From contig NZ_JAQNDM010000002.1 of NCBI RefSeq assembly GCF_028368975.1, positions 6,442,425 to 6,506,424 of the forward strand: a stretch of DNA of 64,000 nt, given 5' to 3'. This DNA comes from Stigmatella ashevillena. GTDB taxonomy: Bacteria; Myxococcota; Myxococcia; Myxococcales; Myxococcaceae. Positions 12,828 to 31,846 of this stretch are shown one piece after another. The notes below the pieces were generated by a model. It saw only the letters and a list, made by a program, of their open reading frames with translations, was not told where the DNA came from and ran no database searches. How positions within the stretch are numbered: the first letter of the stretch is position 1; each line of letters begins with the position of its first letter. The translations under genes and the position numbers were made by a program.

Positions 12828-14366
12828 TCAGAACGTGCCCAGGAAGCGGGCCGAAGCGCCTCCGGAGTCCACCGAGACCTCCAGGGTGACAGGGGGCGGA
12901 GGAGCGCGCGCGGGGGACACGAGGAAGAGCACGGCGCCCGTGGTGAGCGCTGCGCCAGAGCCGATGAGCAGGCCGGTGAGCAGGGTGCGCTTGGCGGAGA
13001 GCGAATCCCGCAGCGCCAAGGCCTCCGTGTCGTTGGCGTCCACGCGGCCGTTGGCGTCGAGGCGCTTGTCGAGGCGATCGAGATCCTTCTGGGCCACGAG
13101 CCGGAGGATGCCCGCGCCCACCAGGACGGCGGCGCCCCCACCGAGCACCCCATAGGAGACCGTGCGCAGGGTCGGTGTCCGGGGCGAGGGCTCCGCCGCC
13201 GTGACGGCCCGCTCCTCGGAGACCCGATGCGGGGCCGGGACATCGAAGGCTGCTTGGTCCGCGGTCGAGTGAGGCACATCGGTGGCGGCCACGGGGACCC
13301 AAGGCGCCGTGCCTTGAGGGCCCGGCACGACGAGCGGAGGGGGCGCCTTGCCCGTGGTGACGAAATCGATGAGCGCGGAGAGCGACTCCGCGAGCGCTTC
13401 TGGGTCTTGAATCTTGAAGCCGCCCTCCCGGAGCTTCTGGCCCCCTTCGACGTGGAGCACGGTGGCCGCGAGCCATTGGGGGCCTTTGCTGCTGGAGCGC
13501 TCCAGACGCACGACAATGACTTCTTCCACGCCGAGCGTCCCGCCCAGCCGGAGGGCATGGCTCACCGTGCGCTCGCCGGACCTGTGGGGGGCGGCCAGGC
13601 AGGGAAACGGACTGCCGGAGACAGCGCCTTCATACGCCAGGTCGACGAAGACGGGCGTGTCCGGCCCCTCCACTGGCAGCGGGCGCGGGAAGCTGACGGC
13701 GCCGTCCTTCACGACGGTGAGCTCATAGCTCCCGGGCAGGAGTTCCAAGGTGAGGGGGGTCTGTCCGGCCTTGTGCCCGTCGAGATAGACCTCGGAGGCG
13801 GGCAGGGTGGACTTCACGGAGAGCTTCACCTTCTTGGCGCGGGCAAGCTCCGTGCGCACTTTCTCGAAGGCCTGTTGCAAGGAGGGCGGATAGAGCCCCG
13901 CGTCGAGCTTGTACTGGGGCTCCAGGCGCAAGATGCTCCGGAAGGCCGCGTCGCTGTCCTTCACCTTGCCCGTGGCCCGCGCGTTGAGGGCTTGGAGGAG
14001 CAGCGCGTGGGCATGGAGCTGCCAGCGCGTGCTTCCCACGGGGAGACGGAAAATCTCCTGGAGTGCCTTGCCGATGACCTGTTCTGCCTGGGCGTGGCGG
14101 GCCTCGTAGAACTGACTCTGCGCGGTTTCGAGCTGGACCTGGAGCTCCTCGACACTCTGGGCCGGGGGCGGGAAGAAGTGCTCGCGGAACGCGGCCGGGC
14201 TCAGCACCTCCTGGCCGGGCCGACTGGCCAGGGCATCGTGAACCGCCCGGGCCTGAGTGTTCAGTTCCGCGTCCTTGCACTCCCCGCTGGCCACCACCAG
14301 CCGCCGGGGAGCCGCGTGCGTGACACAGGCGAGAACGCAAACCAATGGGATCAATCGTGTTTTCAT
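12828..14366 (-). CDS. Exported PEGA-type protein with C-terminal membrane segments
   Basis: 512 residues from ATG 14366, chosen because it begins a good signal peptide (MKTRLIPLVCVLACVTHAAP). Domains: an N-terminal region with TPR-like helices (about 75-165), then a PEGA-type beta domain (LSVKSTLPASEVYLDGHKAGQTPLTLELLPGSYELTV, about 185-225), a possible mixed fold (VEEVIVVRLERSS), a proline-rich linker, and two hydrophobic segments near the C terminus (VLGGGAAVLVGAG and TGLLIGSGAALTTGAVLFLV). Such proteins are very common in myxobacteria and usually have no assigned role; PEGA domains are thought to bind surface or envelope polymers. It is divergent from the lipid kinase gene with a 214-bp gap in which I see no clear motif. 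Confidence 0.83.
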   Translation of the reverse strand: MKTRLIPLVCVLACVTHAAPRRLVVASGECKDAELNTQARAVHDALASRPGQEVLSPAAFREHFFPPPAQSVEELQVQLETAQSQFYEARHAQAEQVIGKALQEIFRLPVGSTRWQLHAHALLLQALNARATGKVKDSDAAFRSILRLEPQYKLDAGLYPPSLQQAFEKVRTELARAKKVKLSVKSTLPASEVYLDGHKAGQTPLTLELLPGSYELTVVKDGAVSFPRPLPVEGPDTPVFVDLAYEGAVSGSPFPCLAAPHRSGERTVSHALRLGGTLGVEEVIVVRLERSSSKGPQWLAATVLHVEGGQKLREGGFKIQDPEALAESLSALIDFVTTGKAPPPLVVPGPQGTAPWVPVAATDVPHSTADQAAFDVPAPHRVSEERAVTAAEPSPRTPTLRTVSYGVLGGGAAVLVGAGILRLVAQKDLDRLDKRLDANGRVDANDTEALALRDSLSAKRTLLTGLLIGSGAALTTGAVLFLVSPARAPPPPVTLEVSVDSGGASARFLGTF

Positions 14367-20293: not shown

Positions 20294-20339
20294 ACTGGCG
20301 GCACCTCGAACCCCGAAGACCCAATTGGAGACGATGGCC

Positions 20340-21137
20340 ATGAGCACTTCTCAAGCAGCTCCCCAGGTGTCGCAGCTCTTCGAGGCCGCCCACGCCGAGG
20401 GCGTCCTCAGTCCCGCGGGCCTCCAGGCCCTCACCGTCGTGGACCTCGGCGCGCAGATTCAGGCGGGCCTCGGCGTCAGCGTGGAGGACGTCCAGGCCAG
20501 CGAGGTGGTCCTCGTGACGGTGATGCCGGATGACTCGGGCAGCATTCAGCACGCGCACAACGCCCAGCTCGTCTGTGACGGCCACAACCTCGTGCTCGAT
20601 TCGCTGCTGACCAGCAAGCAGCGCGACACCGTGCTGTTCCACACCCGCTACCTCAACGGCTTCGTCCTCAACCCCTACCGGCCGCTCGAGGACGTGGTGC
20701 GCATGCACGGCAAGAACTACGACCCGAACCAGGGAACCCCCCTGTATGACCAGACCGTGGTGCTGCTGGGCACCGTGCTGGCCAAGGCCCAGGAGTTCAC
20801 CCGCAACGGCGTGGCGGCCCGCACCGTCACCCTGCTCATCACCGATGGCGGGGACTGCCACTCGCAGCGGGCGCGGGCCCGGGAGGTGGCCGCGCTGGTG
20901 AAGGACTTGCGGCGGGCGGAGAACCACATCGTCGCTGCCATGGGAATCAACGACGGCACCACGGACTTTCACAAGGTGTTCCGGGAGATGGGGATCGACG
21001 ACAAGTGGATCCTCACCCCGGGACAGAGCGCCCAGGAGATCCGCCAGGCCTTCCAGGTGTTCAGCCAGTCGGCGGTGCGGGTCAGCCAGGGGGCCGCCAG
21101 CTTCAGCCGCACGGCCCTGGGAGGCTTCGGGCGCTGA
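20340..21137 (+). CDS. von Willebrand factor A-domain protein (TerY-like)
   Basis: 265 residues from ATG 20340, nine bases after GGAG; ATG 20334 is also possible. A short helical N terminus precedes a vWA fold with MIDAS residues Asp64-x-Ser66-x-Ser68 (MPDDSGSIQ), a conserved Thr in NQGTPLYDQTV and the metal-site Asp in LLITDGGD. No signal peptide or membrane segment is present, so it is cytosolic. Such vWA proteins occur with PP2C phosphatases and kinases in TerY-P type triads, where they are thought to be scaffolds or phosphorylation targets. It is the last gene of the NrtR-controlled hydrolase operon. A TerY orthologue assignment is likely but not certain. Confidence 0.85.
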   Translation: MSTSQAAPQVSQLFEAAHAEGVLSPAGLQALTVVDLGAQIQAGLGVSVEDVQASEVVLVTVMPDDSGSIQHAHNAQLVCDGHNLVLDSLLTSKQRDTVLFHTRYLNGFVLNPYRPLEDVVRMHGKNYDPNQGTPLYDQTVVLLGTVLAKAQEFTRNGVAARTVTLLITDGGDCHSQRARAREVAALVKDLRRAENHIVAAMGINDGTTDFHKVFREMGIDDKWILTPGQSAQEIRQAFQVFSQSAVRVSQGAASFSRTALGGFGR

Positions 21138-24171: not shown

Positions 24172-24651
24172 GTGTCGATCGACGTGGAGGCCTACTACCG
24201 GCGTTACGGGCCCCAGGTGCTACGGCGCTGCCGCTTCCTCCTGCGAGACGAGGAGAAGGCGGTGGATGCCATGCACGATGTGTTCGTTCAGCTCCTGCGC
24301 CATCAGGACCGCTTGAAGAACAGCGCTCCGTCGAGCCTGTTGCACCAGATCGCCACGCGGGAGTGCCTCAACCGGCTGCGCGGGGCCCGCCGCCGCCCCG
24401 AGGACCGCGAGGACGAGCTGGTGCTGCGCATCGCCTCCTCCGGAGATACCGAGGCGAGGACGGTGGCGCGGGGGCTGCTGAGCCGGCTCTTTGGCCAGGT
24501 GCCTGCCTCCAGCCGGGACATCGCCGTGCTGCACCTGGTGGATGGAATGACGCTGGAGGAGACCGCCCGCGAGGTGGGGCTGTCCGTCTCCGGGGTGCGC
24601 AAGCGCCTCCGGGCCCTCTCGTCGGTGTTGCAGGAACTGGAGGCCGCATGA
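24172..24651 (+). CDS. ECF-type RNA polymerase sigma factor
   Basis: 159 residues from GTG 24172, eight bases after AGAGGGAGG. Sigma region 2 is YYRRYGPQVLRRCRFLLRDEEKAVDAMHDVFVQLL, the -10-recognising helix; region 4 is SRDIAVLHLVDGMTLEETAREVGLSVSGVRKRLRAL, a helix-turn-helix. Its TGA overlaps the ATG of the next gene (ATGA), so sigma factor and candidate anti-sigma are translationally coupled. The third gene encodes a caspase-like protease. The sigma factor probably drives its own operon when the membrane partner releases it; I could not identify the target promoter sequence in the 100 bp upstream. Confidence 0.9.
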   Translation: MSIDVEAYYRRYGPQVLRRCRFLLRDEEKAVDAMHDVFVQLLRHQDRLKNSAPSSLLHQIATRECLNRLRGARRRPEDREDELVLRIASSGDTEARTVARGLLSRLFGQVPASSRDIAVLHLVDGMTLEETAREVGLSVSGVRKRLRALSSVLQELEAA

Positions 24652-25445
24652 AAACCCCTCACCGCACCCCGGACTGGCTGCTGGAGCGCATCGCCCTGGG
24701 AGAGCTGCCCCCGGACGAGCTGGCCGCCGCGCGCGCTCGGCTGGCGCAGGAACCCGATGGCGCGGCCCGGTTGGCCGCGCTCGAAGAGGACAACCGGCTC
24801 ACCTTGGAGCAGCGCCCCCCCGCCCTTGTGGCGCGCGAGGTGGAGGCCCGGGCCGCCCGTTCCGAGCGCCTGGATCCCCTGCGGGAGAAGGCGCATCCCT
24901 GGCGCCCTCTGATGCCGGCCCTGGCCTTCGTGCCGGTGCTGGCCGTGGTCTTCCTGATGGTGCGTCCCGGCCCACGGCCGCCCGACGCCGAGCCCATCGC
25001 CGAGGTGACACGCACCAAGGGCCTGACGCCCCAACTCGGCCTTCACCGCCTGGGTGCGGCCGGTCCGGAGCCTCTCGCCGATGGCGCCCGCGCCGCCGTC
25101 CATGACGTGGTGCAGGTCTCTTATGTGGCGGCGGGCAACCGCTATGGCGCCATCCTCTCCCTGGATGGACGGGGCGCCGTCACCCTCCATGCCCCCGAGG
25201 ACGGCCTGAACGCATGGGCGCTCGCGCCTTCCGGGACCCATGCGCTGTCGCGGGCCTACGAACTCGATGACGCGCCCGCCTTCGAGCGGTTCATCTTCGT
25301 CGCCTCGGACAGCCCGTTCCCCCTGGAGGGGATCCTCGTCAGCGCCCGGGAACTCGCCGCGTCGAACGAGGCCCGCACCGCGCCGCTCCCGCTCCCCGCC
25401 GGTTTCCGTCAGGTCTCCTTTACTCTGGAAAAGAACTCACCATGA
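24648..25445 (+). CDS. Single-pass membrane protein, candidate anti-sigma factor with DUF4384-like domain
   Basis: 265 residues. The N-terminal cytoplasmic helices (TPDWLLERIALGELPPDELAA...RLAALEEDN) resemble the sigma-binding part of anti-sigma factors, though without the zinc HxxxCxxC motif. One transmembrane helix follows (LMPALAFVPVLAVVFLMV, about 84-101). The outside domain (about 120-260), with VVQVSYVAAGNRYGAILSLD...LPS...ERFIFVASDSPFPL, looks like the DUF4384 type often found with caspases. Overlapping ATGA/TGA junctions with the genes on both sides show a tightly coupled operon. The anti-sigma role is inferred from position and topology. Confidence 0.8.
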   Translation: MKTPHRTPDWLLERIALGELPPDELAAARARLAQEPDGAARLAALEEDNRLTLEQRPPALVAREVEARAARSERLDPLREKAHPWRPLMPALAFVPVLAVVFLMVRPGPRPPDAEPIAEVTRTKGLTPQLGLHRLGAAGPEPLADGARAAVHDVVQVSYVAAGNRYGAILSLDGRGAVTLHAPEDGLNAWALAPSGTHALSRAYELDDAPAFERFIFVASDSPFPLEGILVSARELAASNEARTAPLPLPAGFRQVSFTLEKNSP

Positions 25446-27751
25446 TCCGCGTTCTCCTGTTGTTGGCAGTGCTGGCGGCGCCCATGGCTCATGGAGAGGC
25501 GCCCTCCCGGGTGCGCCGCCTGGCGCTGCTGGTGGGCGTCAACGATGGGGGGCCTGGGCGCGCGCGCCTGCGCTATGCCGCCTCGGATGCCCAGTCCTTC
25601 GCCCGGGTGCTGGGAGAGCTGGGCGGCGTCACTCCCGCGGACCGGGTGATGTTGTTGGAGACGGGGCGCGACGGGCTGCTGGAGGGGTTCACCCGCTTGA
25701 AAGCCCTGGCCGAGTCCGCCCGGGCCTCGGGGGCGCACCGGGTGGAAGTGCTCCTGTATTACTCGGGGCACTCGGATGACGAGGGGCTGCTGCTCCAGGG
25801 CGAGCGCATGGACTATGGCGAGCTGCGCCGCGCGCTGGGGACGCTGCCCGCGGACGTGCGCATCGCGGTGCTGGATTCGTGTGCCTCGGGGGCCTTCGCG
25901 CGCCGCAAGGGCGGCTCCCCCCGGCCGGCCTTCCTGGTGGACTCGGGCGTCCAAGTGAAGGGTCAGGCCATCCTCACCTCGTCCAGCGAGGACGAGGCCT
26001 CCCAGGAGTCGGATCGGTTGGGGGGCTCTTTCTTCACCCACCACCTCGTCTCCGGGCTGCGAGGGGCGGCGGATGTGACGCGGGATGGGCGGGTGACGCT
26101 CAACGAGGCCTACCAGTTCGCCTTCAACGAGACGCTGGCGCGCACCGAGCGCACCCAGGGCGGTGCCCAGCACCCGGCCTATGACATCGAGATGGCGGGC
26201 ACGGGCGACTTGGTGATGACCGACCTGCGCGCCACGTCGGCGGGGCTGATCCTGACGGAGGCGCTGGAGGGACGCCTCTACGTGCGCGACGAGTCGGGCG
26301 CGCTGGTGGTGGAGTTGATGAAGACGGCGGGCCGGCCCGCGGAGCTGGGGCTGGCCCCCGGCCGCTACCGGGTGCGGCGTGAGCTGGGAGGGGGCATGTC
26401 CGAGGCCACCCTCGTGCTCACAGAGGGCAAGAGCACGCCGCTGGCGGCGGCCCACTTCAGCTCGGTGCTGAGCGAGGCCACGGTGTCACGCGGAGGCCCT
26501 GTGGGGGCCGAGGCCGAAGTCACCAGCACCGGGCTGGCGCGCAGGCGCGTGCCATTCAACGCCAGCCTTGTTCCCGGGGTGAGCTTCAACGCGCTGGTGG
26601 CGGGCGAGGCGCCGGTGGAGAACGCCTTTGCGCTGGGGGTGGTCAACGACGGCACGGCCCTGCATGGCGCGGCCCTGGGGCTGGGGGCCAATGTGTATGG
26701 CGAAGAGGTGAGGGGGTTCTCGGCGGCGGTGGGCATGAACATGGCGGGCGGCAAGACGCGGGGCGTCCAGGCCTCCGTGGGCCTCAACATTTCGGGCGAG
26801 GCATTGAACGGAATGCAGGCGGCGGTGGGAGGGAACTGGGCGGGGGGGAGCGTGGAGGTGGGGCAGCTCGCTGCCGGGGTGAACGTGGCGATGGGGAGCG
26901 TCTCCGGGGTGCAGGGATCCGCGGGGGTGAACGTGGCCGCGGGAGACTTCCGGGGAGCGCAGGCCACGGCCGGGGTGAACGTGACGCGGGGGGCCTTCCG
27001 GGGCCTCCAGTTGGCGTCGGGGATCAACATGACGCAGAAGGGCTTCCACGGTGCTCAGGTCGCGACGGGGGTGAACTGGGCCGGGGGCGCTCTGTCCGGT
27101 GTGCAGGTGAGCTCGGGCTTCAACCGCGCGCAGGGTGTCTCGGGCTTGCAGGTGGGGCTGCTCAACGTGGGCGGCGATGTGACGGGCGCTCAGGTGGGGC
27201 TCGTCAACATCGGCGGGGTGGTGAAGGGCAGCCAGGTGGGGTTGCTCAACGTGGCCAAGGAGGTCCACGGTGTGCCGCTGGGGCTGCTCTCCATCGTGAA
27301 GGAGGGCCAGCGCCACGTGGAGTTCTGGTCGAGCGACATCCAGCTCACCAACGTGGGGGTGAAGCTCGGCAGCAAGTACGTCTACTCCACGCTGGTGGCG
27401 GGCATCGGGCCGGATGACCGGTTCCAGCGCTTCAGCCTGGGGCTGGGGGTGGGGGTGCACCTTCCCCTGACGTCGCGCTTCTGGGTGGATGTGGACACGG
27501 TGGCCAGCGGCGTCCACAGCCGGGAGGAACCCTTCGAGGGAGAGACCCTTCTGACGCAGGCGCGGGTGATGGCCGGCTTCCAGATCTTCTCGCACTTCGC
27601 CGTGTTCGCCGGGCCCACGTACAACGCCTACTTCGCGTTCTCGCCGGAGGGCCCGCAGTCCATCACCACGATGAAGGTGTCCAAGCACAAACTGGGGAGC
27701 GATGGCACGGTGCAGCATTGGCCGGGCTTGCAGCTCGGCCTGCGCATCTGA
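25442..27751 (+). CDS. Secreted caspase-like (C14) protease with surface repeats
   Basis: 769 residues with signal peptide MIRVLLLLAVLAAPMAHG. The caspase-like domain (about 25-260) has LALLVGVNDG and the catalytic dyad His110 (LLYYSGHSDDEG) and Cys147 (VLDSCASGAF). A beta-rich middle follows (about 270-370). From about 380, short repeats of the form GVNVAAGDFRGAQATAG recur roughly a dozen times, like LA_2272-type surface repeats, and the C-terminal 150 residues resemble an outer-membrane barrel (GVHLPLTSRFWVDVD). The protease would thus be outside the inner membrane. Bacterial caspase homologues act in regulated proteolysis and cell death. Expression probably follows the ECF sigma factor with which it is translationally coupled. 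Confidence 0.87.
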   Translation: MIRVLLLLAVLAAPMAHGEAPSRVRRLALLVGVNDGGPGRARLRYAASDAQSFARVLGELGGVTPADRVMLLETGRDGLLEGFTRLKALAESARASGAHRVEVLLYYSGHSDDEGLLLQGERMDYGELRRALGTLPADVRIAVLDSCASGAFARRKGGSPRPAFLVDSGVQVKGQAILTSSSEDEASQESDRLGGSFFTHHLVSGLRGAADVTRDGRVTLNEAYQFAFNETLARTERTQGGAQHPAYDIEMAGTGDLVMTDLRATSAGLILTEALEGRLYVRDESGALVVELMKTAGRPAELGLAPGRYRVRRELGGGMSEATLVLTEGKSTPLAAAHFSSVLSEATVSRGGPVGAEAEVTSTGLARRRVPFNASLVPGVSFNALVAGEAPVENAFALGVVNDGTALHGAALGLGANVYGEEVRGFSAAVGMNMAGGKTRGVQASVGLNISGEALNGMQAAVGGNWAGGSVEVGQLAAGVNVAMGSVSGVQGSAGVNVAAGDFRGAQATAGVNVTRGAFRGLQLASGINMTQKGFHGAQVATGVNWAGGALSGVQVSSGFNRAQGVSGLQVGLLNVGGDVTGAQVGLVNIGGVVKGSQVGLLNVAKEVHGVPLGLLSIVKEGQRHVEFWSSDIQLTNVGVKLGSKYVYSTLVAGIGPDDRFQRFSLGLGVGVHLPLTSRFWVDVDTVASGVHSREEPFEGETLLTQARVMAGFQIFSHFAVFAGPTYNAYFAFSPEGPQSITTMKVSKHKLGSDGTVQHWPGLQLGLRI

Positions 27752-30076: not shown

Positions 30077-31846
30077 TTACGGCCAGTAATCAACAGCCAG
30101 GACACTCCACTCCCGTGGAAGGCGGGCCTGACCCGGCTTGGATCCTGGGTTCTTGATCGTGAGCCCACTCAGGTCGCCGAGTACAAAGCAGATAGGAATG
30201 CGGCGCCCATCCGGCAACAGGGCTTCGGTGTAGCGGCCATAGACGGCCTCCTCCCTGTATTTGAGAAGTCCCTCCGTCCAAAGCTGTCCGTAAAGAAGGG
30301 TGCCGTCGGGCAGGGGGCCTGTCCTTGCGTACTTCACCACCCGGCTGATGATTTTCCCCTCATGATAGATGCCCTCCTGCGTATTCTTACCGGGCTGATT
30401 GATATCAATGATGACGCGGTAGTCTGTCTTACGGAGGTTCATTTCCACCATGCTCTGGACAGCCTCCTGGGGACAGTCCTCTGGGAGGGGGCGCACTTGG
30501 GCCGCTGGGCAACCGACGCTGAAGGTGACGCACAGCCAGGCGGCCACAGCCTTGAGGGAGCGAGAGTTGTTGAGGGTGGACACGAGCGAGCTTCCTTTCT
30601 CGGATTCGGCGTTCGAAGCCGGGGTGGGACTGAGCGACATCCGCCACGCGGCGAAGAACGAGAGGCTTAGGAGGACCACCCCTACCCCAGCAGCCATCTT
30701 CCAGCGCCGTTTTTTGCGTCGAGCGTGAGCGTCATCCAGGGATTGAAGCTGTACTTCGAACTCCTGAGCAGCGGTGTAGATCTTCTCCAGCGCCTGTCTG
30801 TCGGAGAGCGCTTCGGCCTCCTCCTGCCGCGCTTTTTGGGCTCTGCGCTCGGACTCTTGCTGCAGAACCTTCCGCTTCTCCACTTCCTCCTGGGTGAGGG
30901 GCGCCGGCCCGCTCTCTGGAAGCGCCAGCGGCACCTTCCAGGCCGAGTTCTTCCGCTCCTTGGCGGCATCCCAGAGCGCTTGATGAAGGGCCGCAGCGGT
31001 CTCATATCGATCCTCCGGCCGCTTCTCCAGCAACCGCATGACAATGCGGCTCAGCGGCTCGGGAACATCCGGGTTGATATAGTGCGGAGGGCGGGGGACG
31101 AGCGTCTCGATGGCAACCAGGAGTTCGGCAGCAGGGAGCTTCTTGGGGTCGAAGGGGTGGTGCTCCGTGAGCGCTTCGAACATGAGCACCCCCAACTGGT
31201 ACAGGTCGCCCGCGACGCCCGCGTCGAAGTGCTCGCCCTCCTCCTCGGCACTGCGCCGCAGGAAGGTGACGCACTCAGGCGGCAGCGCATGGGCCATGCT
31301 GGGCGGCAGCTTCTCCGTGAGGGTGGAAGAGCCCGGCAGCCACACGCTGCCCAAGTCGATGAAGAAGGGTTTGTTGTCCCCCTTGCGGATGACGATATTG
31401 GCGCCGGTGAGGTCGCGGTGCAGAAGCTTGCGCCGGTGCAGTTCCACCACCGCGAGCACCACCGCCAGGAAGATGTCCACGAGTTGCGCCGCGGTAGGAC
31501 GTGTGCGCGCACGCCAATCGTTGAAGTTTTCGCCCTCGACGTACTCGGTGACGAAGTAGAGGTAGCCGGTACTGGGGTGGGGCCAGCGGCCCAGCGCGTA
31601 CAGGCGGAGCAGGTTGGGGTGGCTGGTATTGGCCATGAGGGTGGCGGCTTCGTGGGCCGCACGTCCCTCTACTTCCTTGTCCTCCGAGGCCGGGCGCAAC
31701 GCCATCTTCAGGGAGAACAGCGCCCCCTCGCTTTCAACCTTGAAGGTGCGGCCAAAGCCACCGCTCCCCAGCGTTTCCAGAATGCGCCAAGAGCCCACGC
31801 ATTGTCCTGGCTGGAGGTGATCCGGATGAAGAGCATCGGCCGTCAT
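30077..31846 (-). CDS. Membrane serine/threonine protein kinase with fused secreted C-terminal domain
   Basis: 589 residues. A Hanks-type kinase domain (about 15-290) has LGSGGFGRTF, LHRDLTGANIVI, and DLG in place of DFG, so probably active. A helical, charged juxtamembrane region is followed by one transmembrane helix (WKMAAGVGVVLLSLSFFAAW, about 388-407). After it comes a second hydrophobic stretch ending SVGC and a C-terminal domain (PLPDGTLLYGQLWTEG, YTEALLPDGRRIPICFVLGD) that looks like a periplasmic protein in its own right. It follows the DUF2381 gene by 15 bp. Both genes are lower in GC than the neighbours dnaN and recF. Substrate is unknown. Confidence 0.9.
   Translation of the reverse strand: MTADALHPDHLQPGQCVGSWRILETLGSGGFGRTFKVESEGALFSLKMALRPASEDKEVEGRAAHEAATLMANTSHPNLLRLYALGRWPHPSTGYLYFVTEYVEGENFNDWRARTRPTAAQLVDIFLAVVLAVVELHRRKLLHRDLTGANIVIRKGDNKPFFIDLGSVWLPGSSTLTEKLPPSMAHALPPECVTFLRRSAEEEGEHFDAGVAGDLYQLGVLMFEALTEHHPFDPKKLPAAELLVAIETLVPRPPHYINPDVPEPLSRIVMRLLEKRPEDRYETAAALHQALWDAAKERKNSAWKVPLALPESGPAPLTQEEVEKRKVLQQESERRAQKARQEEAEALSDRQALEKIYTAAQEFEVQLQSLDDAHARRKKRRWKMAAGVGVVLLSLSFFAAWRMSLSPTPASNAESEKGSSLVSTLNNSRSLKAVAAWLCVTFSVGCPAAQVRPLPEDCPQEAVQSMVEMNLRKTDYRVIIDINQPGKNTQEGIYHEGKIISRVVKYARTGPLPDGTLLYGQLWTEGLLKYREEAVYGRYTEALLPDGRRIPICFVLGDLSGLTIKNPGSKPGQARLPREWSVLAVDYWP

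Follow-up and report, generated by a model that had tools for sequence, protein, structure and literature searches.

A Conserved Cassette of Sigma Factor, Anti-Sigma Candidate and Exported Caspase with a Predicted Envelope Regulon in Stigmatella ashevillena and Its Relatives

Results

A sigma factor, a membrane protein and a caspase are encoded by overlapping genes

Within a 64,000-nucleotide stretch of the Stigmatella ashevillena genome (the window, numbered from its first base), three co-directional genes at 24172–27751 encode a sigma factor, a membrane protein and a caspase, and are joined by two ATGA junctions (Table 1). The arrangement had been proposed in a first-pass annotation made from the letters alone, and we confirm it. 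Chance is excluded because the gene order is conserved, with the membrane protein gene beside the caspase gene in 72 of 80 related loci.

The product of gene 1 matches the Pfam families Sigma70_r2 (E 1.7e-11) and r4_2 (E 2e-6), both above cut-off, and the NCBIfam model TIGR02937 (58.5 bits; cut-off 42.9). Regions 2 and 4 are the only Sigma70 regions in the protein, which identifies it, as annotated, as an extracytoplasmic function (ECF) sigma factor.

Gene 2 encodes a protein with a single strong hydrophobic stretch and no cysteine. It has no Pfam match at E≤1, and the NCBIfam anti-sigma model scores 24 bits, far below its cut-off of 100. The structure model (64 sequences in the alignment; mean predicted local distance difference test score, pLDDT, 86.8) has helices at the N terminus, followed by a membrane stretch modeled with low confidence and an immunoglobulin (Ig)-like outer domain; Foldseek returned nothing for this model at E≤0.001. 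A helical N-terminal domain, one transmembrane segment, an outer domain and an adjoining sigma gene together make up the general layout of membrane anti-sigma factors, and gene 2 is thus a candidate anti-sigma factor that would bind and inhibit the gene 1 product. The zinc motif HxxxCxxC occurs in none of 64 aligned relatives, although some more distant cassettes do have it (e.g., L027 and L056, by eye). The single-pass, zinc-less character attributed to this protein is therefore borne out, whereas the DUF4384-like outer domain holds weakly: 6 of 27 aligned family members match DUF4384, with a best E of 8e-4.

Peptidase_C14 (PF00656) covers residues 25–248 of the gene 3 product with 35.1 bits (cut-off 21.4) and is the sole Pfam family above cut-off. 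The best NCBIfam match of the caspase domain is the EACC1-associated caspase model NF047832 (E 7e-17), which all 23 members of the A1 alignment also match; at 61.5 bits against a cut-off of 140, gene 3 falls outside that family. A PDB sequence search with the caspase returned nothing relevant. The catalytic dyad noted at first pass, His110/Cys147, is invariant in 23/23 and 68/68 aligned rows, the window protein included. Asp49 and Asp145 are likewise invariant in 68/68 rows, and we take them to serve in the S1 pocket, as in metacaspases.

The structure model of gene 3 (68 sequences, mean pLDDT 89.4) has a predicted template modeling score of 0.56, so low that the mutual placement of its domains is not to be trusted. 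Taken singly, the caspase domain resembles metacaspase-4 (VIA Z 21.2 over 208 residues; Foldseek E 5e-6), and its loop at residues 157–170 has a pLDDT below 50. The solenoid superimposes on a beta-helical antifreeze protein (VIA Z 20.8 over 232 residues). Surface-type repeats had also been claimed here; the LA_2272 surface-repeat model (NF047436) gives 22.2 bits for the window protein, just under its cut-off of 25, and 19 of 23 family members match it at E≤0.001 (best 1e-10). The C-terminal region has weak Foldseek matches to OmpA, NspA, OpcA and Omp38 (E 0.004 or worse), and a VC2662-family model matches 19 of the 23 members there. An N-terminal hydrophobic stretch together with the C14 match supports the annotated exported caspase with an intact dyad. 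On the model, the protein is probably barrel-anchored. The first-pass annotation had named neither the solenoid nor the barrel-like end, and it contained no regulon.

Table 1. Features of the cassette, with positions in the window
Feature	Position	Strand	Basis
Predicted cassette promoter GTGACA-N15-GGTGTT, 30 nt before sigma start codon	24115..24141	+	
Gene 1: ECF sigma factor, 159 aa (amino acids), GTG start	24172..24651	+	Pfam, NCBIfam, family alignment
Gene 2: single-pass membrane protein, 265 aa, anti-sigma candidate	24648..25445	+	Profile searches, alignment, structure model, hydropathy
Helical N-terminal domain, residues 9-82, predicted sigma-binding, no zinc motif	24672..24893	+	pLDDT 94-98 at residues 11-70
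Transmembrane segment, residues 89-105	24912..24962	+	Hydropathy
R122-T-K124-G125, juxtamembrane stalk, proposed caspase cleavage site	25011..25022	+	KG 64/64, RxKG 57/64 rows
Periplasmic Ig-like beta domain, residues 129-262	25032..25433	+	Model; best VIA Z 8.8, which may be merely a common arrangement
Gene 3: exported caspase/beta-solenoid/barrel-like protein, 769 aa	25442..27751	+	Profile searches, alignment, structure model, structure comparison
Signal peptide, ~residues 1-18, boundary by eye	25442..25495	+	Hydrophobicity peak at 1-17; A-x-A-like ends in relatives (by eye)
Caspase domain, residues 24-264	25511..26233	+	Pfam; structure comparison; invariant dyad
Catalytic His110 codon	25769-25771	+	
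Catalytic Cys147 codon	25880-25882	+	
R154-R155-K156-G157, edge of disordered loop after catalytic Cys, proposed self-cleavage site	25901..25912	+	KG 68/68, RxKG 67/68 rows
Beta-rich linker domain, residues 267-345	26240..26476	+	Model secondary structure
Beta-solenoid, ~16-residue repeats, residues 380-621	26579..27304	+	Model; LA_2272 repeats
C-terminal beta-barrel-like region, residues 622-769	27305..27748	+	Long strands in model

The cassette recurs across several phyla

Caspase matches are present in 53 of 59 genomes (that of the window included) and gene 2 matches in 37. When species genomes were scanned once for matches to the caspase alignment, 366 stretches were confirmed; the best 80 of these were kept, so that the counts lean to close relatives. 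The trio recurs among these 80 loci: in addition to the 72 anti-sigma genes beside the caspase gene, profile scans detected the sigma gene in 54, 51 of them clean. Spacing is tight. The gap between anti-sigma and caspase genes is at most 180 bp in 72/72 (zero or an overlap in 43), and that between sigma and anti-sigma genes at most 50 bp in 49 of the 51, being exactly −4 in 34. The remaining 29 loci consist of 12 anti-sigma/caspase pairs without sigma gene, six cut by a contig end, eight with the caspase alone and three set aside (L062, whose sigma gene is broken, and the doubtful L125 and L139). A sigma/anti-sigma fusion in L139 was rejected, as the scaffold has unknown bases at that point. 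Host titles name Myxococcota, Spirochaetes, Fibrobacteres, Candidatus Fermentibacteria and assorted proteobacterial metagenome-assembled genomes (MAGs), and on these comparisons the cassette is old and spread over several phyla.

Several individual loci depart from the common form. In Nannocystis pusilla (L125:4576-8025) no stop separates the sigma frame from the caspase frame, in contrast to the relatives L124 and L120, through either a sequence error or a real fusion. The window's genome holds a decayed paralogous cassette at G000:C2:7575997-7576697 (L170, L241), with a caspase fragment and a stop-bearing anti-sigma fragment; another caspase/anti-sigma pair, at 7565867-7567566, lies ∼9 kb away. 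Immediately upstream of an Anaeromyxobacter cassette, and on the same strand, lies a caspase-less repeat-barrel gene (L105:3376-4554; also L253). Candidatus Marispirochaeta associata (the L138 genome, G092) has seven matches to the cassette sigma family, one partial and several with near-equal scores, which suggests amplification of the family there.

A promoter motif is common to whole and sigma-less cassettes

Alignment of the sequences upstream of the sigma genes reveals GTGACA and GGTGTT blocks with 15 bases between them. The strict motif GTRACA-N15-GGTGTT lies within 250 bp of the sigma gene in 31 of 49 testable loci (32 for a loose form) and in 0.1% of 13,576 control windows; some of the motif-less sigma-first loci show degenerate forms under a wider pattern. 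It also precedes the anti-sigma gene in all 12 sigma-less anti-sigma/caspase pairs (controls 0/3,398), and stands directly before the caspase gene in none of the eight caspase-alone loci. These counts leave out L125, L139, L062 and eight loci with too little upstream sequence. Across whole genomes, the motif outnumbers a reversed-pattern control by 32 sites to 4 in seven genomes of the window's genus and by 129 to 3 in 13 genomes of a sister genus (that of G028). This genus appears to include Myxococcus xanthus, as the sigma gene occupies an identical contig position in G083 and in the genome of L077, a named M. xanthus locus.

Because the sigma-less pairs keep the same motif, separate regulation of the caspase, which the first-pass annotation had named as evidence against its proposal, is contradicted by the sequence, and common regulation with the sigma and anti-sigma genes is upheld. 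The cassette, its exported architecture and the shared promoter are well supported at the sequence level, and the cassette's own sigma factor presumably reads the motif.

Split operons keep the anti-sigma gene with the caspase

The sister genus has divided the cassette between two loci. In 26 of 27 genomes, locus A comprises the sigma gene, the anti-sigma gene and a third gene that matches only the C-terminal barrel (203 amino acids in L040; L145, one of the 26, has an extra stray match of 25 positions). By eye, L040 has a DUF6748-like neighbor, like the window locus. In all 27 genomes the best caspase match, locus B, has an adjoining anti-sigma gene and no sigma gene of the cassette family. 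The caspase is therefore not needed in cis, since the third gene of locus A has lost it in 26 genomes.

A comparable division is seen in Archangium lansinium, where sigma and anti-sigma genes follow the motif with no caspase in the following 0.7 kb (L251), and an anti-sigma gene and caspase follow it without sigma gene elsewhere (L064). In a third case (L062) an anti-sigma/caspase pair lies beside a broken sigma gene. In a tree of 36 anti-sigma proteins, the sigma-bearing copies of the sister genus group with the sigma-less copies of Archangium, and the reverse holds in the other group, which suggests that the two genera lost genes in opposite ways; support is low at some deep nodes of this tree (one 0.27). 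The splits in the two genera are likely independent. That the anti-sigma gene stayed with the caspase gene after loss of the sigma gene is our chief reason for proposing that caspase and anti-sigma factor act together.

The predicted regulon consists of envelope genes

Gene coordinates were read against motif sites in the 13 sister-genus genomes. The motif precedes the sigma gene in 12 (G062 yielded no sigma gene), the anti-sigma/caspase pair in all 13, and a caspase-less repeat-barrel gene in 12 (the contigs of G070 allow no verdict); in all 13 it also lies ∼6 kb before another caspase-barrel gene. These four classes account for 50 of the 129 sites; G081 has one site of each and no others. 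The 6-kb unit of G028 begins with ExbB, followed by a frame that by eye resembles ExbD, then TonB and a TonB-dependent receptor, and it ends with a gene of unknown function and the gene for the caspase-barrel protein. ExbB was confirmed behind the motif site in four of the 13 genomes, those whose loci were examined.

The eight caspase-alone loci belong to the same arrangement. All contain an ExbB-TonB-receptor operon (tblastn), which the caspase gene follows in seven and adjoins in Hyalangium (L109); the motif precedes ExbB in six, and the other two are cut there. We had taken these solitary caspases as counter-examples and no longer do so, since all eight in the named set sit at such an operon. 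The window's genome also has an ExbB-TonB-receptor operon with the motif, and its receptor shares 68% identity with the G028 receptor.

Among 60 motif loci, 33 fall in the sigma, pair, repeat-barrel or TonB classes, and a further one comes after an ExbB-like remnant. The remaining 26 were inspected together with the remnant; 15 were given a crude lipobox test, which 11 passed. The start codons of these further motif-led genes are 35–119 bases from the first motif base. Ten of the genes were scanned: four belong to the beta-lactamase family, two resemble di-haem peroxidases, two match DUF2807, one matches peptidase S41 and the last has no family. Several of the remaining sites, which lack a convincing gene, may be due to chance. 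The predicted regulon comprises envelope genes: those for repeat-barrel and caspase-barrel proteins, the ExbB-TonB-receptor operon and lipoprotein-like genes.

Two groups of sites merit separate description. Lipoprotein-like relatives of di-haem cytochrome c peroxidase directly follow the motif in different genomes (L179, L198, L211, L226 and L232); they are 60–76% identical over ∼490 residues, and two of the five were scanned by Pfam. In L174 (and on the minus strand of L240, from 13128), a second motif site lies ∼5 kb ahead of the exbB operon; it precedes a short ExbB-like remnant of 49% identity, after which comes an ABC-transporter/DUF7088/DUF4340 operon.

A Lys-Gly motif is shared by the caspase and the anti-sigma candidate

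An invariant Lys-Gly, in most rows part of RxKG, occurs both in the caspase loop that follows the catalytic Cys and in the stalk of the anti-sigma candidate (counts in Table 1), where in the model it precedes the first strand of the outer domain at residue 129. RxKG is found 77 times in total in the caspase set and 58 times in the anti-sigma set; shuffling leads one to expect 8.4 and 2.5. In distant cassettes (L026-L030 and L056-L059; L060, whose middle gene was not recovered, is left out) Lys-Gly is present in 9/9 caspases and 8/9 stalks, L027 having KS, and the Arg is not kept in all of them (e.g., L056 and L058). The stalk counts come from caspase-linked outer domains; a DUF4384 search of the window's genome for unrelated ones gave one sub-threshold match, itself in a caspase-linked paralog.

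C14 proteases other than caspases cut after Arg or Lys (PMC5756287; PMC6426788), and caspases and type II metacaspases are themselves cut in the linker after the catalytic Cys region (PMC5756287). The window caspase would likewise act after basic residues, and cleavage of the anti-sigma factor is the likely use of this activity. The first-pass annotation had listed the anti-sigma factor among possible substrates; the split operons and the shared Lys-Gly motif lend it indirect support, and such cleavage would be the best mechanistic option.

Discussion

A proposed model for signaling across the envelope

We propose, with about even confidence in the model as a whole, that the cassette is a trans-envelope ECF signaling system in which the caspase cleaves the anti-sigma factor. 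The gene 2 product would hold the sigma factor at the inner membrane. The gene 3 product would be an outer-membrane barrel/solenoid protein with its caspase domain most likely toward the periplasm, where a signal at the outer membrane or cell surface would switch the caspase on. The caspase would then cut the juxtamembrane stalk of the anti-sigma factor, as predicted at RxK|G, and the freed sigma factor would act at GTRACA-N15-GGTGTT promoters, transcribing both the cassette operon and a small regulon of envelope genes. We infer five elements of this scheme: the binding of sigma to anti-sigma factor, the reading of the motif by the sigma factor, the activity of the caspase, its location, and the cleavage. 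A more specific version is tentative, and we lean somewhat against it: the barrel-mounted caspase would be the site-1 protease of an ECF pathway, firing at RxK|G, initially within its own loop to activate itself and next in the stalk of the anti-sigma factor, as part of a multi-phylum module with an envelope/TonB regulon whose half-operons act in trans via one promoter sequence.

Several observations weigh against the cleavage model. The periplasmic orientation of the caspase domain is an assumption. Lys124-Gly125 may be structural instead of a cleavage site, as Lys262 is equally invariant. Type I metacaspases are not self-cleaved between p20 and p10 (PMC5756287). Even the loose motif is missing from 17 of the 49 sigma-first loci, several of them from Spirochaetes. 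The first promoter pattern, GTRACNG-N14-GGTGTT, gave six sites against two for the reversed control in the window's genome, and was dropped for the pattern without fixed G, which did better there (4 versus 0). The second caspase-barrel of that genome (G000:C1, L236) and its counterpart in G005 (L243) are an unexplained exception, with neither motif nor TonB operon in 16 kb. Finally, locus A in 26 genomes retains sigma and anti-sigma genes with a third gene that has no caspase, and the caspase-barrel genes in the TonB operon (8/80 loci) have no adjoining anti-sigma gene.

These last two observations also suit another possibility, which we hold to be a serious contender without favoring it: the caspase is merely an output, with the sigma/anti-sigma pair sensing envelope stress through other proteases (regulated intramembrane proteolysis) and the caspase-barrel, as one member of the regulon, processing surface or outer-membrane proteins. 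Archangium, with no cis caspase within 0.7 kb downstream of its sigma and anti-sigma genes, and the motif before envelope genes without caspase point the same way. A pure output would not need an anti-sigma gene, however, and at locus B that gene stays with the caspase after sigma loss in 27/27 genomes; the Lys-Gly common to caspase and anti-sigma candidate also weighs against it.

The order of sigma factor, inner-membrane regulator and outer-membrane protein is that of fecI-fecR-fecA, and the predicted regulon includes a TonB system with a TonB-dependent receptor. The cassette could accordingly signal in the FecA manner without proteolysis, the caspase fold docking or sensing a ligand and contacting the anti-sigma factor. 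We regard this as unlikely: the dyad and Asp145 are invariant in 68/68 rows, unexpectedly for a mere docking domain, and Pfam scans found no FecR or STN domain. FecR has no match in gene 2 at E≤1, and scans of 27 gene 2 family members did not return it at E≤0.1 either. Gene 3 differs further from FecA in being a caspase carrier and not a TonB-dependent receptor.

It is similarly improbable that the protein is an autotransporter whose caspase acts at the cell surface on prey or neighboring cells. Its signal peptide, passenger, solenoid and C-terminal barrel do recall type V secretion, and many of the hosts are predatory myxobacteria, but the anti-sigma factor would then be out of reach. Predation is also unlikely as the common factor because the cassette occurs in Spirochaete and Fibrobacteres MAGs, Breznakiella and Anaeromyxobacter, and prey killing gains no support from the sequence.

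The operon, dyad and common regulation put forward at first pass hold up, but the accompanying cell-death switch, or an anti-phage one in which the caspase kills the cell on sigma release, is very improbable and we reject it: although prokaryotic caspase homologs are discussed for death and immunity (PMC8195603; PMC3501461) and the CalpL/T/S system of clustered regularly interspaced short palindromic repeats (CRISPR) loci ties a protease to an ECF sigma factor (PMC11417357), this protein is exported and probably barrel-anchored, its predicted regulon consists of envelope and uptake genes (envelope proteins plus a TonB system), PADLOC gave no family for either the caspase or gene 2 at E≤1 (and two weak sigma matches, E 0.01 and 0.024), and window positions 14000–38000 contain no short-spaced direct repeats.

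Relation to known systems

Four of the five M. xanthus metacaspases were placed in predicted operons with sigma-70 factors in 2012, and such operons were also reported in Anaeromyxobacter, Haliangium, Sorangium, Ralstonia and Fibrobacter (PMC3501461). The window cassette is of the same kind, and the sigma/metacaspase operon itself has thus been known since then; the first-pass annotation does not mention this. The operon section of that paper describes no anti-sigma gene, outer-membrane architecture, promoter, regulon, split operons or Lys-Gly motif.

A precedent for the proposed cleavage is CalpL, which cleaves the anti-sigma factor CalpT that holds the ECF sigma factor CalpS; both systems would pair a dedicated protease with an anti-sigma and an ECF sigma factor. 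CalpL, however, combines a Lon protease with a SAVED domain, is switched on by cyclic oligoadenylate and is linked to CRISPR (PMC11417357), in contrast to a caspase on an exported barrel-like protein; profile scans of the cassette and the repeat check at 14000–38000 found no Lon-SAVED protease in a CRISPR context. ECF54 sigma factors are alike in having CHAT or other proteases in their gene context (PMC8999054). The likeness is one of gene context, and the cassette differs in its anti-sigma candidate.

In the open-licence literature we found no report of the anti-sigma partner, architecture, promoter, regulon, split operons or shared Lys-Gly. Discussion of bacterial caspases has mostly centered on death and immunity, and to our knowledge natural substrates are known for few of them. 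The present analysis gives one widespread caspase clade a concrete substrate candidate, its own anti-sigma factor, together with a predicted cut site, a promoter and a list of target genes; predicted targets lie in the genus of M. xanthus, a tractable laboratory organism. If the model is correct, caspase proteolysis would serve signaling across the outer membrane, a role distinct from cell death.

Genomic neighborhood

The cassette is flanked upstream by a divergent rpsD and downstream by a convergent DUF6748 gene. By eye from the list of open reading frames, a von Willebrand A-like protein is encoded at 20325–21137 (+) and a serine/threonine kinase-like protein at 30077–31846 (−).

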